A stretch of DNA of 64,000 nt, taken from the NCBI GenBank assembly GCA_945868475.1, contig CAMBLM010000002.1, forward strand, positions 1 through 64,000, in the 5' to 3' direction. Within the stretch, counting starts at the first letter, position 1; each line of letters begins with the position of its first letter. Under the pieces are notes generated by a model. That model did not search any database, had not been told where the DNA came from, and worked only from the letters and a program-made list of their open reading frames with translations. The translations under genes and the position numbers were made by a program. Below, one piece after another: positions 21,443-27,525 of the stretch. The stretch is from an uncultured Ruminococcus sp. (lineage in GTDB: Bacteria > Bacillota > Clostridia > Oscillospirales > Ruminococcaceae).

Positions 21443-21545
21443 ATACTAATTTTTAAACTGAAAGTGTACAAAAAATCAAGCAAAAGCTCGCATATATGGC
21501 TTTTGCGCCGATTTTTTGTCTACACTTTGATTAAAAATTAGTATT
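21443..21545. repeat. ATACTAA-type palindromic element (near full-length)
   Basis: atactaatttttaaactgaaagtgtacaaaaaatcaagcaaaagctcgcatatatggcttttgcgccgattttttgtctacactttgattaaaaattagtat. Confidence 0.8.
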
Positions 21546-22209
21546 ATAATAACCTGAACCTATTCTTCTCAAACTCAATAAGCCCCTCATCGCGAAGCTT
21601 GCAAAGCTCGTTCGACATTGCACTGCGGTCTACGGAGAGAAAATCCGCAAGCTGCTGGCGGTTGAACGGTATGGAAAAACTGCCGCTGTTCTGCCGCTTC
21701 GCTTCTTCGGAGAGATAAGCTATCAGCTTTTCGCGCGTTGTGCGTCGCGACATATACCCGAGCTTTCGGACAAGCTTTCGGTTCTTTTCCGATATTGCGA
21801 AAAAAAGATTTTTCACCGCCATTGCGTGAAATTTGCAGCAGTTAGGACAAACCGTCAGCAGCTTTCCTATGTCAAGAAATATCACGGCACTGTCCTCGAC
21901 CGCAAGCACATCATTCATCAGCGGTCCGCTCTCGGGAGCAGCATAGGCTTCGCCGAACATCTCGCCGACACCGACCATACTTATTATGCTGCGGTTGCCC
22001 CAGTAATCGTCACGCTGAATATGCAGCTCCCCCTTGACGAGCATCATCAGCCGCTCGACACGCTCGCCCTCACGCAGAACATACTCGCCCTTTTCGTAAG
22101 TGCAAAGCTTCGCCTGCAAACAACCGAGCATCGCTTCTATATCTTCGTCCGAAGCACCCGAAAAAAGCTGTGTATTTTTCAGTATGGGAATATATTTCTT
22201 CATAAGCAT
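21544..22209 (-). CDS. Crp/Fnr family transcriptional regulator
   Basis: cNMP-binding-like N-terminus; C-terminal HTH FNRQQLADFLSVDRSAMSNELCKLRDEGLIEFEKNRF. Confidence 0.88.
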   Translation of the reverse strand: MLMKKYIPILKNTQLFSGASDEDIEAMLGCLQAKLCTYEKGEYVLREGERVERLMMLVKGELHIQRDDYWGNRSIISMVGVGEMFGEAYAAPESGPLMNDVLAVEDSAVIFLDIGKLLTVCPNCCKFHAMAVKNLFFAISEKNRKLVRKLGYMSRRTTREKLIAYLSEEAKRQNSGSFSIPFNRQQLADFLSVDRSAMSNELCKLRDEGLIEFEKNRFRLL

Positions 22210-22319: not shown

Positions 22320-23027
22320 ATGATAAGAAAGATAATAAAAATAGACGAAGAAAAATGCAATGGCTGCGGACTTTGCGCCGATGCCTGCCATGAGGGTGCT
22401 ATCGACATTGTTGACGGCAAGGCGAAGCTTATGCGTGAAAATTACTGCGACGGACTCGGCGACTGCCTCCCTGCCTGCCCTGTGAACGCGATCTCGTTCG
22501 AGGAGCGTGAAGCACCTGCTTATGATGAAGCGGCTGTGCTTGCTGCCAAGAAAGCCAAGGAAACAAAAAAGAGCGGCGTTCTCCCCTGCGGCTGCCCCGG
22601 CTCGCAGTCAAGAGCTATCAGGCACGAAACAGCGGCTGCTCCGACAGCATCTGTCCCCGGACAGCTTTCACAGTGGCCCGTTCAGATAAAGCTTGTACCG
22701 GTCTATGCTCCGTATTTTGACGGTGCAGACGTTCTCGTTGCCGCAGACTGCACGGCTTATGCTTACGGCAGCTTCCACAATGACTTCATCAGGGGCAGAA
22801 TAACCCTTATCGGCTGTCCGAAGCTTGACGAGGGCGACTACGCCGAAAAGCTTACTGCAATTTTTGCAGGAAATGACATAAAGAGTGTTGTCGTTACACG
22901 AATGGAAGTTCCCTGCTGCGGCGGCATAGAAAACGCTGTAAAGAGAGCGATCAACGCCTGCGGAAAGGACATTCCGCTGAGGGTCGTGACCATTTCCGCC
23001 GACGGAAGAATACTTAACTCACTCTAA
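22320..23027 (+). CDS. 4Fe-4S ferredoxin-type protein
   Basis: CNGCGLCADACHEGAIDIV and CDGLGDCLPACPVNAISFEE. Confidence 0.9.
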   Translation: MIRKIIKIDEEKCNGCGLCADACHEGAIDIVDGKAKLMRENYCDGLGDCLPACPVNAISFEEREAPAYDEAAVLAAKKAKETKKSGVLPCGCPGSQSRAIRHETAAAPTASVPGQLSQWPVQIKLVPVYAPYFDGADVLVAADCTAYAYGSFHNDFIRGRITLIGCPKLDEGDYAEKLTAIFAGNDIKSVVVTRMEVPCCGGIENAVKRAINACGKDIPLRVVTISADGRILNSL

Positions 23028-23081
23028 AATAGTTTCCCGGGAAGAATTTACGGCTTCTCGGGATTTTTTTTGCCAAAACCC

Positions 23082-23110
23082 TTGACAACGTTTTCCGACC
23101 GTGCTATACT
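23082..23110 (+). promoter_or_regulatory. Sigma70-type promoter of ABC exporter operon
   Basis: TTGACA-17 nt-TATACT. Confidence 0.75.
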
Positions 23111-23143
23111 TTGAACATATTATTTTGAAAGGAGGCGGGCAGA

Positions 23144-23227
23144 ATGTTCGTGAATATCTTAAACACATCAAACTATCATTACGGCATTTTTATGGGAAAA
23201 AGAACGCTGCCCGTCCTCGCGGACTAA
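23144..23227 (+). CDS. 27-aa putative leader peptide
   Basis: Own SD aaaggagg; MFVNILNTSNYHYGIFMGKRTLPVLAD*; followed by terminator then ABC transporter. Confidence 0.6.
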   Translation: MFVNILNTSNYHYGIFMGKRTLPVLAD

Positions 23228-23249
23228 AATTTTAGGGTAAATAAAAGCG

Positions 23250-23287
23250 TCCCTGCTGTGCCTAATGGTACGGCAGGGATTTTTTTG
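23250..23287 (+). terminator. Putative attenuator between leader ORF and ABC genes
   Basis: tccctgctgtgcc taat ggtacggcaggga ttttttt, 13-bp stem with 2 G-U pairs. Confidence 0.8.
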
Positions 23288-23312
23288 CGTTCAAACAGAA
23301 AGGGGTAACATA

Positions 23313-25202
23313 ATGGCTTACTTTACGCAGACGGAAAAGGAAGAGAAAAAAGACGAGCTTCACAAGGAATACGGCGTTATAAGCAACTGTATCTACATAC
23401 TGAAAAGATTCGTCAAATACCGCAAGTCGCTGATATTTTTCCTGCTGACGGGAACATTCGCAGCGGCTTCGATGTCCTATATCTGGAGCTTTATCGGAAA
23501 GCTCGTCATTGATATGATACAGACAAGCGCAGGCGGCGGAAACATCGTTCCTCTCATAAAGCTTGTGACGGCGACAAGCCTTGCGGAGCTTTTCATAATG
23601 TGGCTGAACACGGTATCATCGACAAAATTGAGCGTAGGCTTTACCTATATCCGACTTATGATAGTCAAGGAACGCATCGCCAAAACGCTCAGCATGGACT
23701 ATGAATCGCTCGAAACGCCCGAAATGCTCGACCGGCTTCAGAAAGCCAAGCGCGCGACGGACGGCGACTGGGTGGGCGTTCAGGGAATGATGACCTTTAT
23801 GCAGGTGCTTCTCACGCAGATGATCTCCATTATCATCGCAGTTGTAATTATGACAAGCTTTGATCCGCTCATAATTCTGGTCATTGCGGTGCTGTCCGTT
23901 ATCCAGTTTCTTTACTTTGAGCATATCCGCAAAAAGGATAAAAAGGAAATGTGGGACGCCATGATGCCCCACTGGCGCAAGCTCGAATATATGGAAACGG
24001 TGACGACCGATTTTTCCTATGCAAAGGATATACGCCTTTTCGGAATGAAGAATTTTCTCTCGAAAAGGCAGCATGAGATCTATGATGAGGAGCTTTCGCA
24101 TTGGATAAAGTCACGCCAATACTGGATATATAACTCAATATTCTCGCACGGAATATCGCTCATCCGTCAGCTTATCATCACGGGCTGGCTCGTTTACGGC
24201 GTTATAAAAAAGGGACTTTCCATTGGTGATTTCACCCTCTATCTCGCCAGCGCAGGCGCATTTTCCAATGCGGTCAGCCAAGTCCTTTCGGCACTTTCGG
24301 GTCTGAGGGAGCGAAGCGCACACACGGACGATTACCGCAGCTTTATGGATATCCCAACGAGCGAGGACAAGGACACTGTCCCAGTTCCTAAGTCCGACCG
24401 CTATGTTTTCACATTCGAGAATGTTTCGTTCAAGTATAAGGGTCAGGACAAATACGCGCTGAAAAATCTGAATTTGACCCTTGAAGCAGGCGAAAAGCTT
24501 GCCGTTGTCGGCTTGAACGGCGCAGGAAAAAGCACATTTATCAAGCTTCTTCTGCGGCTTTACGATGTCACCGAGGGTCGTATCCTTATGAACGGAACGG
24601 ATATCCGCCGATTTGACAGAGCGGAGTATCACCGCCTATTTTCCCCTGCTTTTCAGGACGTTACCGTGTTTGCTTTTCCAATGGCTGAGAATGTTTCAAT
24701 GGATCCTCCCGATGAAACGGACAAAGCAAAGGCTGACAAGTGTCTGCGCGATGCAGGTCTTTCCGAAAAGATAGACAGCCTTTCAAAAGGCATCGACACC
24801 GAGCTGCTAAAAGTTCTCTACGATGACGGCGTTGATCTTTCGGGCGGAGAAAAGCAGAAGCTTGCACTCGCAAGAGCACTTTACAAGGGCAGCGATGTGA
24901 TAGTTCTCGATGAGCCTACCGCCGCGCTTGACGCTCTCGCCGAATACAAGCTTTACAAGAGCTTCAACGGACTTGTCGGAAACAGAACGGCGGTCTATAT
25001 CTCGCACCGACTTTCGTCAACACGCTTCTGCGACAGAGTTGCGATGTTCAAGGACGGCGAAATGACAGAAACGGGAACTCACGATGAGCTTATGGCGAAA
25101 AACGGCGATTATGCCGAAATGTTCCGCGTTCAGGCACAGTATTACATCGAAGACAAGGATATTTTCGACGGCGAAGCGACCGAAGCCGCCGTTGCTGACT
25201 GA
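23313..25202 (+). CDS. ABC exporter half-transporter (TMD-NBD), subunit 1
   Basis: Start MAYFTQTEKEEKK; Walker A GLNGAGKST; LSGGEKQKLALARALYKGSDVIVLDEPTAALD. Confidence 0.92.
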   Translation: MAYFTQTEKEEKKDELHKEYGVISNCIYILKRFVKYRKSLIFFLLTGTFAAASMSYIWSFIGKLVIDMIQTSAGGGNIVPLIKLVTATSLAELFIMWLNTVSSTKLSVGFTYIRLMIVKERIAKTLSMDYESLETPEMLDRLQKAKRATDGDWVGVQGMMTFMQVLLTQMISIIIAVVIMTSFDPLIILVIAVLSVIQFLYFEHIRKKDKKEMWDAMMPHWRKLEYMETVTTDFSYAKDIRLFGMKNFLSKRQHEIYDEELSHWIKSRQYWIYNSIFSHGISLIRQLIITGWLVYGVIKKGLSIGDFTLYLASAGAFSNAVSQVLSALSGLRERSAHTDDYRSFMDIPTSEDKDTVPVPKSDRYVFTFENVSFKYKGQDKYALKNLNLTLEAGEKLAVVGLNGAGKSTFIKLLLRLYDVTEGRILMNGTDIRRFDRAEYHRLFSPAFQDVTVFAFPMAENVSMDPPDETDKAKADKCLRDAGLSEKIDSLSKGIDTELLKVLYDDGVDLSGGEKQKLALARALYKGSDVIVLDEPTAALDALAEYKLYKSFNGLVGNRTAVYISHRLSSTRFCDRVAMFKDGEMTETGTHDELMAKNGDYAEMFRVQAQYYIEDKDIFDGEATEAAVAD

Positions 25203-25216
25203 AAGGAGTGACAGCT

Positions 25217-27013
25217 TTGAAAGATCTGAAAGAAAAGAAAAGCTCCCCCGTCAGGGAGTCGCTTAAATACTGCTTCCGTCAGATGAAGCAGTACAAAAAA
25301 ACGTATCTGCCGCTTTCCGTGCTGAATGTTATCATCAGCGCAGCAATGCCTTTCCCCGAGCTTCTGCTCCTTCCCGTTGCTATCGATGCGCTCATGGCGG
25401 AGGAAAAGGATATCCCGTTCATCATCACCTGCTTTGCGGTAATGACGGTCTTTTCCGTGCTTCTGGCGGCTCTTAACAGCGTTCTGACCGTTCATCTTTC
25501 CAAGTGCGAAGATCTTTTCAACAATGCTTCTGGCATGGAAGTTTCCGCAAGGTGTATGGAGATAGATTTCTCACTCACCGAGGACAAAGATGCTCTTGAC
25601 AGTATCAAAAAAGCAAGGGACGGCTTATGGTGGTCGGGCGGAACGCACAACATTGCATCGGCGTTTTTCGCGCTTATTTCAAATGTGATAAAAATTGCCG
25701 GTGTAATTGCCGTACTTATTATAAATGCGCCCGTGCTGCTCATAATTATTGGTATTCTGCTCGTACTTACGGCATTGATAAATGCAAAGAAAAACAAGAT
25801 AGACATTGAAAATTTCTCCGAGCTTTCGGGAATAAACCGTATCTTCGGGCATATCTGCTGGGAAATGGAGGATTTCCGCTGCGGAAAGGACGTTCGCCTT
25901 TACAGTGCCGCAGGAATGATGCTCGCCAAGACTTCACAGCAGATAAAGCGTCTTTCCGACTACTGGGAAAATATCAACAAGCTGAAATTTCCGCTCAATA
26001 TCCTTGACATTATCGTCGGAGTTCTGCGCGATTTCGGAACTTACCTTTATCTTGGAATTCTCGCCGTTACGGGAAAAATAACAATAGGTACTTTCTCGCA
26101 GATGCTCAGCGCAGGCGGAACACTCCACGCGTCGATGCAGGCGCTTATCCTCGGAATTCAGGATATCGCCAAGCGCAGCAATTATATGTATGAGATAATC
26201 AAGTTTATGGACTATCCTCCTGCAATGGAAAAGGGCAACAAAAAGATCGGGGACCTCAATGGCGGTCACGTTATCGAGTTCAGAAACGTCAGCTTTAAAT
26301 ATCCTCACACGGATAAGTATGTTCTCAACAATGTTTCGCTCACGCTCCGAGCAGGTGAAAAGCTCTCGGTAGTTGGACTCAACGGCGCAGGAAAAACAAC
26401 GTTCATCAAGCTTTTGTGCCGACTTTACGACGCCGACAGCGGTGAGATACTTCTTGACGGCGTGAATATCCGTGACTATGATTACGATGAATATATGAAA
26501 CTTTTCTCGGTCGTTTTTCAGGACTTCAAGCTGCTCGCATTCTCGGCGCAGGATAACATTCTCCTCGGCAAAGAGGACAGCTGCGAAACGGTCGATGAGC
26601 TTTTCCGCAAGACGGGGCTTCTCGACAAGATAAATTCTCTCCCCAAGGGCAGGGATACGATGATGTTCAAGCAGTTTGACAACGACGGCGTTGAGCTTTC
26701 GGGCGGCGAACAGCAGAAAATGGCTATCGCCCGCGCGCTTTACAAAAACGCTCCAGTTATAATCCTCGATGAGCCGACAGCGGCGCTTGACCCCGTTGCG
26801 GAGTACGAAATTTACCGCCAGTTCGACAGCCTTGTCAACGGCAAAACCGCGGTCTACATTTCGCACCGTCTTTCCTCCTGCAAATTCTGCGACAACATTG
26901 CGGTTTTCTCGGAGGGAACGGTCAAGGAATACGGCACCCACAGCGAGCTTGTTCACAAGCCGAACGGTATTTACGCCGAGATGTTCAAGGCTCAGGCGCA
27001 ATACTATGTTTAA
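25217..27013 (+). CDS. ABC exporter half-transporter, subunit 2
   Basis: VGLNGAGKTTF; LSGGEQQKMAIARALYKNAPVIILDEPTAALD; start TTG 25217 or GTG 25208. Confidence 0.92.
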   Translation: MKDLKEKKSSPVRESLKYCFRQMKQYKKTYLPLSVLNVIISAAMPFPELLLLPVAIDALMAEEKDIPFIITCFAVMTVFSVLLAALNSVLTVHLSKCEDLFNNASGMEVSARCMEIDFSLTEDKDALDSIKKARDGLWWSGGTHNIASAFFALISNVIKIAGVIAVLIINAPVLLIIIGILLVLTALINAKKNKIDIENFSELSGINRIFGHICWEMEDFRCGKDVRLYSAAGMMLAKTSQQIKRLSDYWENINKLKFPLNILDIIVGVLRDFGTYLYLGILAVTGKITIGTFSQMLSAGGTLHASMQALILGIQDIAKRSNYMYEIIKFMDYPPAMEKGNKKIGDLNGGHVIEFRNVSFKYPHTDKYVLNNVSLTLRAGEKLSVVGLNGAGKTTFIKLLCRLYDADSGEILLDGVNIRDYDYDEYMKLFSVVFQDFKLLAFSAQDNILLGKEDSCETVDELFRKTGLLDKINSLPKGRDTMMFKQFDNDGVELSGGEQQKMAIARALYKNAPVIILDEPTAALDPVAEYEIYRQFDSLVNGKTAVYISHRLSSCKFCDNIAVFSEGTVKEYGTHSELVHKPNGIYAEMFKAQAQYYV

Positions 27014-27075: not shown

Positions 27076-27525
27076 ATGGAAAAAATCGAAGTAATGTCAT
27101 ACGGACATAAGCACTGGGAAAAGACTGCCGAGTTCGCCCGAAACTGCTCTTGGAAAGCAGGTGCTTGCCTTGCTCAAAAGATGAAAGACAATGATTTTGA
27201 AAGCAACGAGCGCGTGATAATTGCGCTTGACTGTGAAAGCATTGCAGGCTTCTGCACATTCGCAAACAAGGACGAACTGCCGCCCGAATATGACTTTGCC
27301 CCTTTTATCGGATTCGTGTTCGTTGATGAAAAATACCGCGGCAAGCGTTTATCGGAACGACTGATAAACGCCGCCTGCGGTGAAGCGCAAAAGCAAGGCT
27401 TTGATACGGTTTACATTATGAGCAGCGAAGTCGGTCTGTACGAAAAGTACGGTTTTGCGAAGATCGGCGATCATCCGACGATATACGGTTCGGTCGAGCA
27501 GGTGTTTGCAAAGAAACTGCATTGA
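27076..27525 (+). CDS. GNAT family acetyltransferase
   Basis: GFVFVDEKYRGKRLSERLINAACGEAQKQGFDTVYIMSSEVGLYEKYGF. Confidence 0.85.
   Translation: MEKIEVMSYGHKHWEKTAEFARNCSWKAGACLAQKMKDNDFESNERVIIALDCESIAGFCTFANKDELPPEYDFAPFIGFVFVDEKYRGKRLSERLINAACGEAQKQGFDTVYIMSSEVGLYEKYGFAKIGDHPTIYGSVEQVFAKKLH

Follow-up and report, generated by a model that had tools for sequence, protein, structure and literature searches.

A probable translated-leader attenuator before an ABC exporter pair in an uncultured Ruminococcus, with a Shine-Dalgarno sequence predicted to pair with the end of its own reading frame

In the trp attenuator of Escherichia coli, translation of the leader chooses between helices, distal leader RNA base-pairs with the ribosome-binding site of the leader, and a run of Trp codons serves as the signal. 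Ribosome-mediated attenuators are also already known upstream of ABC exporters and of hflX. In the Bacillus subtilis vmlR leader, an anti-antiterminator, an antiterminator and a terminator compete, and a drug-stalled initiating or early ribosome blocks the anti-antiterminator, provided that translation can initiate at the leader ORF (PMC9226507). That ORF is three codons long (MIN) and its Shine-Dalgarno (SD) sequence is single-stranded, the SD of vmlR itself being hidden in another hairpin (PMC9226507). In bmrB-bmrCD, according to the accessible text of PMC4191407, a translated leader and a premature terminator precede two half-ABC exporters that are induced by lincomycin, erythromycin and chloramphenicol; an antiterminator, weaker than the terminator, and an anti-antiterminator are predicted. 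Listeria rli80-hflXr is a ribosome-dependent attenuator of an hflX resistance paralogue with a short ORF, in which mutating the start codon or the antiterminator abolishes induction and mutating the anti-antiterminator gives constitutive expression (PMC6310831). The uORFC-6-1 motif of Bacillales likewise places a short ORF 5′ of hflX (PMC8632094), and the ORFs of both systems carry an Arg-Leu-Arg (RLR) macrolide-arrest motif (PMC6310831, PMC8632094). Upstream of the two-gene ABC exporter patAB of Streptococcus pneumoniae, the accessible text of PMC4319486 describes a predicted terminator, antiterminator and anti-antiterminator, derepression by terminator mutations, and induction by fluoroquinolones and DNA damage.

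A locus in an uncultured Ruminococcus species, lying within the 64,000-nt stretch of DNA analysed as a whole (hereafter the window), is a well-supported candidate for a further translated-leader transcription attenuator before an ABC exporter pair (Table 1). The support is comparative, and is considered good because the arrangement recurs in 13 species, two of its helices pass separate permutation tests, and the same device is found at hflX. As in the trp attenuator, ORF translation would decide between helices and the SD pairs distally; unlike trp, no run of Trp codons is present. Three helices that may compete as in vmlR are present at the locus, and folding models of the window leader favour an early ribosome as the switch. 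The locus differs from vmlR in that the ORF is 22-53 codons long (27 in the window) and spans the helices, that the leader SD would itself be the anti-antiterminator strand, and that the target is an exporter pair rather than an ABCF factor. The first-pass annotation, made from the letters of the window, had named bmrB as precedent. Gene order and protein families agree in that both leaders appear to govern a two-gene half-ABC exporter operon, and the logic of the comparison holds; the layout does not carry over, the terminator lying within the 162-nt bmrB ORF there and starting 24 nt past the stop here (PMC4191407, accessible text). A role for SD sequestration, proposed here, is not described for bmrB in that same portion of the source. 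In contrast to rli80-hflXr and uORFC-6-1, neither the window leader nor the hflX leader of the same genome (MLIKTSVKIDLIGKSVCRFVCQ) contains the RLR motif. patAB resembles the locus in placing an attenuator before an ABC exporter pair, and differs in that no leader ORF is shown in the accessible text of PMC4319486.

Table 1. Coordinates of the leader unit and exporter genes in the window.
Feature	Coordinates	Strand	Evidence
Intrinsic terminator ending the ferredoxin-like gene before the leader	23035..23071	+	10-bp stem, -15.6 kcal/mol, then 8 U
Promoter TTGACA-17-TATACT, TG before -10	23082..23110	+	11/12 consensus matches
Shine-Dalgarno of leader ORF, AAAGGAGG	23128..23135	+	Sequence; conserved in related leaders
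P1 5′ strand (SD region GAGGCGGGCAG), proposed anti-antiterminator	23132..23142	+	-22.8 kcal/mol; permutation p=3e-5, 13 diverged leaders
Leader ORF, 27 codons, MFVNILNTSNYHYGIFMGKRTLPVLAD	23144..23227	+	Strong SD and open frame retained across 13 species
Proposed antiterminator (AT) 5′ strand GGCAU...GGGA, inside ORF	23183..23197	+	Pairs with terminator 5′ arm
P1 3′ strand CUGCCCGUCCUC, just 5′ of leader stop	23207..23218	+	Duplex energy and permutation test
Intrinsic terminator of leader	23249..23286	+	-27.1 kcal/mol, z -8.2, U7 tract; compensatory stem changes
First half-ABC exporter, 629 aa	23313..25202	+	ABC_tran 8e-29; full-length MsbA-type model matches
Second half-ABC exporter, 601 aa, listed start GTG	25208..27013	+	ABC_tran 5e-31; full-length MsbA-type model matches

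The preceding gene has a terminator of its own (23035-23071), so the leader begins a separate transcription unit. Its promoter, which the first-pass annotation had called near-consensus, is the best of 17 promoter-like sites within 6 kb, matching at 11 of 12 positions; the -35 element (23082-23087) and the -10 element (23105-23110) are separated by a 17-nt spacer, with an upstream TG extending the latter. GTGCTATACT and the TTGAC(A) -35 element are kept in the related leaders L043-L046 and L066. The 27-codon ORF with its strong SD, the strong terminator and the two half-ABC exporters, all claimed from the outset, likewise stand. The terminator stem (23249-23280), followed by the U-tract, folds at z -8.2 relative to shuffles, and its 5′ arm (23250-23262) is the strand common to the terminator and the antiterminator. 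The region 23110-23310, whose folding had been suggested as a check, gives z = -3.8. Conservation of the SD and of the open frame suggests that the leader ORF is translated. Immediately 5′ of the leader unit lie a divergent pair of genes, for a CRP/FNR-type regulator (21544-22209, minus strand) and a 4Fe-4S protein (22320-23027, plus strand).

Both exporter proteins match MsbA-type half-exporter models strongly and over their full length, with weak or sub-threshold Pfam matches for the transmembrane domain. Each carries Walker A GLNGAGK, LSGGE, LDEPTAALD and SHRLSS, so that both nucleotide-binding sites look canonical. BmrCD, by contrast, has one degenerate nucleotide-binding site. The substrate is presumably a drug; a PDB sequence search with the exporter matched only generic ABC exporters. 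Assignment to a defence system was rejected, the PADLOC similarity being limited to mad3 and of the generic ABC ATPase kind. A GNAT acetyltransferase gene at 27076-27525, about 60 nt 3′ of the second exporter gene, could be a third gene of the operon.

That the SD region is complementary to the end of the ORF, offering an alternative fold, had also been noted at first pass. The pairing is real: P1 joins GAGGCGGGCAG and CUGCCCGUCCUC in a helix of 11 bp, interrupted by a single bulged U (-22.8 kcal/mol), a strength equalled by 0.9% of shuffles of ORF ends and 0.25% of random windows. The role, however, needs revision. P1 is not itself the antiterminator; its most plausible role is that of an anti-antiterminator that also hides the leader SD. 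The antiterminator, which the annotation did not mention, would form between mid-ORF and the terminator arm. In the window this second helix, AT, consists of GGCAU with GUGCC and GGG with CCC, and its core pairs in one register across six close relatives. Taken singly, AT in the window is ordinary compared with random windows (p about 0.2-0.4), because GC-rich arms easily find partners, and reliance is therefore placed on collective tests. In these, strands were swapped among 13 diverged leaders, a permutation that keeps composition and position and destroys the match alone. Native partners outperformed swapped ones for both P1 (summed energy -220.8 vs -175.8 +/- 10.0, p=3e-5) and AT (-149.9 vs -122.1 +/- 9.1, p=0.002), and did so again when the test was limited to the seven exporter lineages (P1 p=3e-4, AT p=0.002). 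In seven lineages, complementarity to the terminator arm peaks ~31 nt 5′ of the leader stop. Among the six closest leaders, compensatory changes are present in the terminator stem, and no double compensatory change was seen in P1 or AT; these leaders scarcely vary in either helix and thus add nothing beyond conservation.

The annotation had staked its reading on conservation of the leader and had proposed a search for homologues. A genome-collection scan with an exporter alignment, together with a family-wide search, yielded leaders in 13 species, each an ORF of 23-53 codons with a strong SD, a terminator 23-42 nt past the stop and, in most, a recognisable promoter. Orthologues of the first exporter that are 70-86% identical carry the same leader. 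What persists is the architecture (ORF, P1, antiterminator, terminator), the sequence being largely replaced; the annotation's refuting condition, a leader that is not conserved, therefore fails to apply. The peptides share an N-terminal M-F-V/I tendency, to which the closest relatives add NGIF and PVL, both encoded within paired segments; beyond these relatives they are unrelated (e.g., MTNIIIIKNRVKLKAVHVFSENL vs MFKHIIFRIKMNILYENASLLYHNKR). P1 is re-made in other letters, as GGCAGACAA with UUGUUUGCC in L048, GAACGGCU with GGCUGUUC in L049 and GGUAAAGGAG with CUUCUUUAUC in L050, and AT as AAACUGAAGG with CCUUCGGUUU in L049 and, with one mismatch, ACGAAAACGC with GCGUUUCCGU in L050. A peptide-similarity search for the leader across the genus gave no convincing relative, and in Rfam release 15 no family reached its gathering score for the window leader (best NsiR1, 26.2 bits vs 39). 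Short ORFs with terminators do exist as ordinary small-protein genes, and the leader might be one, unconnected to exporter control. This is highly improbable: the pairings are conserved in spite of a largely unconserved peptide, the ORF always lies directly 5′ of the exporter in the 13 species, and the same device is found at hflX.

The distribution of the leader on the exporter tree bears on the same point. All 13 proteins with a leader belong to a single clade of 18 members, in which the label changes three times, a clustering matched by none of 500 shuffles, and the pattern fits one gain and two losses. In one of these losses (L052, L053, L055 and L056) a divergent HTH_3 (XRE-type) gene stands in place of the leader, and a palindromic TTGTCC...GGACAA-type element surrounds the promoter, about 100-300 nt 5′ of the exporter (in L052, TTGTC...GGACAATTATTATGATATAC...TTGTCCTGTTATAGGACAA). 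Since the gene and the palindrome coincide with leader loss, the comparison points to a repressor having taken over from the attenuator in this lineage, an exchange that again speaks against a small-protein gene of independent purpose. In L043 (2772-2900) an AT-rich, repeat-like insertion has lengthened the leader to 42 codons without disrupting the frame, as would be expected if the ORF were selected to stay open.

How the two helices might be switched was modelled by folding nascent leaders before the terminator 3′ arm is made, with the ribosome footprint blocked out codon by codon, pseudoknots and kinetics lying outside the model. In 22 of 23 leaders, a P-site ribosome at codons 1-3 left AT formed and P1 absent or almost so. 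In the window, naked RNA favoured P1 (11.9 vs 0.9 pairs for AT). A ribosome at codons 1-4 gave 12-13 AT pairs and no P1, one at codons 5-7 a mixture, and one at codons 8-14 a full 15 pairs of P1 and no AT, with little AT at later positions. These effects exceeded those of shuffled ORFs (AT 10.4 vs 3.9 +/- 0.9; P1 7.3 vs 3.3 +/- 1.0), the averages for AT and P1 lying above each of 60 shuffled sets. Individual leaders depart from the pattern, the hflX leader of G001 yielding no AT and L048 and L050 little P1. Equilibrium folding favours the terminator in nearly every state, which implies that AT must act through kinetics; in bmrB, too, the antiterminator is the weaker structure (PMC4191407). Overall, these models suggest a sequence tuned to detect a ribosome held on the first codons of the ORF.

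The mechanism that follows is judged likely, though short of assured: a ribosome-mediated attenuator of vmlR-like logic, in which three RNA states compete. P1, between the leader's own SD and the ORF end, would act as anti-antiterminator and also shut off further leader translation; AT, between mid-ORF and the terminator 5′ arm, would compete with the terminator, T. With no ribosome, P1 would form and disfavour AT, and transcription would stop at about 23286. A freely translating ribosome would lead to the same outcome, either covering the mid-ORF strand or letting P1 re-form behind it. If a drug or other stress held the ribosome at roughly codons 1-4, the SD would be covered, P1 could not form and the mid-ORF strand would be free; AT would then form before the terminator 3′ arm exists, and RNA polymerase would enter the exporter pair. 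This ribosome-position logic is throughout a computational prediction. It leaves the first-pass idea of a leader attenuator of the exporter pair intact as to the translated leader and changes its mechanism. Premature termination in vivo and induction of the exporter pair by drugs would be expected.

The main rival reverses the default. In untranslated RNA, P1 and AT would both be present, held together in a pseudoknot, leaving the leader ON unless mid-ORF is translated; P1 would only limit re-initiation, and the leader would sense overall initiation capacity rather than stalling. The geometry permits this, in that most exporter leaders have P1 and AT strands that abut and are joined by long loops, and the core strands of the window lie about 10 nt apart without overlap. 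Moreover, naked RNA already favours AT over P1 in 6 of 13 exporter leaders under the pseudoknot-free model, and a mid-ORF ribosome abolishes AT in nearly all leaders. Set against these points, the strands overlap and are hence mutually exclusive in L049 and in most hflX leaders, naked RNA of the window favours P1, and induction of the published relatives rli80 (PMC6310831) and cplR is lost when the start codon is mutated. The coexistence model is on this evidence unlikely. Nascent-peptide arrest at the ORF end or stop, in the manner of TnaC or MsrDL, offers another route to the same helix: a ribosome at the stop would cover the P1 3′ strand and free mid-ORF, so that AT forms. The AT strand ends 15-24 nt before the stop in all exporter leaders, so such a ribosome would just clear it, and in the model AT does form with a ribosome at the stop in L043, L045, L046 and L066. 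Yet the C-terminal residues are not conserved between lineages, and the stop ribosome leaves little or no AT in most leaders beyond the closest relatives (L047, L049, L051, L050, L089 and nearly all hflX leaders), making arrest at the stop very unlikely.

Look-alike leaders at other genes were sought with an SD-region motif; most matches with one or two mismatches were ordinary genes and were discarded. With terminator criteria relaxed for hflX, an SD-clamped leader with a terminator was found 5′ of that gene in all six genus genomes examined, including the window's own, where MLIKTSVKIDLIGKSVCRFVCQ (L131, G000:C3, about 121,320-121,500) is accompanied by P1, antiterminator and terminator. Two further genera (G279, G143) have an hflX leader of the same kind, and the same scan of hflX loci in 24 other relatives found no such leader. 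HflX domains were confirmed in the own-genome and G143 proteins, and the hflX leader had no match in Rfam. In most hflX leaders the AT strand GGAAGU and the P1 strand GUCCGUC overlap by 2-4 nt, which makes the two helices mutually exclusive there; in the G003 leader both helices have changed compensatorily, to AGGUUC with GAACCU and GGCGAAC with GUUCGUC. HflX splits stalled ribosomes, and its Listeria resistance paralogue is attenuated in a ribosome-dependent way (PMC6310831). The recurrence of the leader at hflX is the strongest indirect argument that the window leader senses ribosomes in trouble.

The hflX leaders also weigh on whether the element might be a metabolite riboswitch or an amino-acid starvation attenuator. 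Ile and Tyr codons abound in several exporter leaders, which is why an isoleucine sensor was considered, but codons 4-13 of the window leader contain a single Ile, no regulatory codon run is common to the hflX leaders, and a riboswitch finds no Rfam family at gathering score. This class of explanation is extremely improbable, and isoleucine starvation was rejected, Ile richness being common to neither the window nor the hflX leaders. Lincomycin and retapamulin freeze initiating ribosomes. Because the leader apparently reads an early-held ribosome, drugs of this type are natural candidates, and the leading guess for the inducer is a lincosamide, a pleuromutilin or an early-arresting macrolide; that the M-F-V/I peptide start adds macrolide sensitivity is conjecture.

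A broader proposal, on which opinion is evenly balanced, is that one modular device, a very strong SD clamped by its own ORF end, is in use across several Oscillospiraceae genera, where it acts as a common detector of ribosomes frozen on the initial codons and controls a small translation-stress regulon including hflX, the present exporter pair and one or more further ABC exporters. The SD would itself be the anti-antiterminator, so that SD occupancy is read and no arrest peptide is needed. Neither such an SD with a long ORF, nor the absence of an arrest motif, nor joint use at hflX and exporters in Oscillospiraceae was found in the published literature searched or in Rfam. If the proposal is right, gut Oscillospiraceae possess an inducible response to ribosome-targeting drugs in which one RNA design serves a rescue factor and exporters, exporters that are silent until a drug is present are accounted for, and drugs that freeze initiating ribosomes should induce without an arrest peptide. 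It also offers a search rule, complementarity of SD with ORF end and of mid-ORF with a terminator arm, for cases in which Rfam-style models fail through low sequence conservation.

Three further loci resemble the leader to different degrees. At G284:C4, about 75,928 (L171/L097), an SD-clamped leader (MIDRHGKTLSRRDSLSALPLCPF) with a P1 of about -25 kcal/mol and a terminator precedes a different ABC half-exporter. On the minus strand of G004:C18, about 13,300 (L147), the leader MSRYIHSISMLTFGNEHLSVVEHIF and a terminator are followed by an apparently broken ABC exporter gene. At G144:C4, about 55,905 (L181/L102), a promoter, an SD-motif leader and a terminator stand about 0.6 kb 5′ of a MatE-family efflux gene; P1 is weak in this leader and its link to that gene is unsure.
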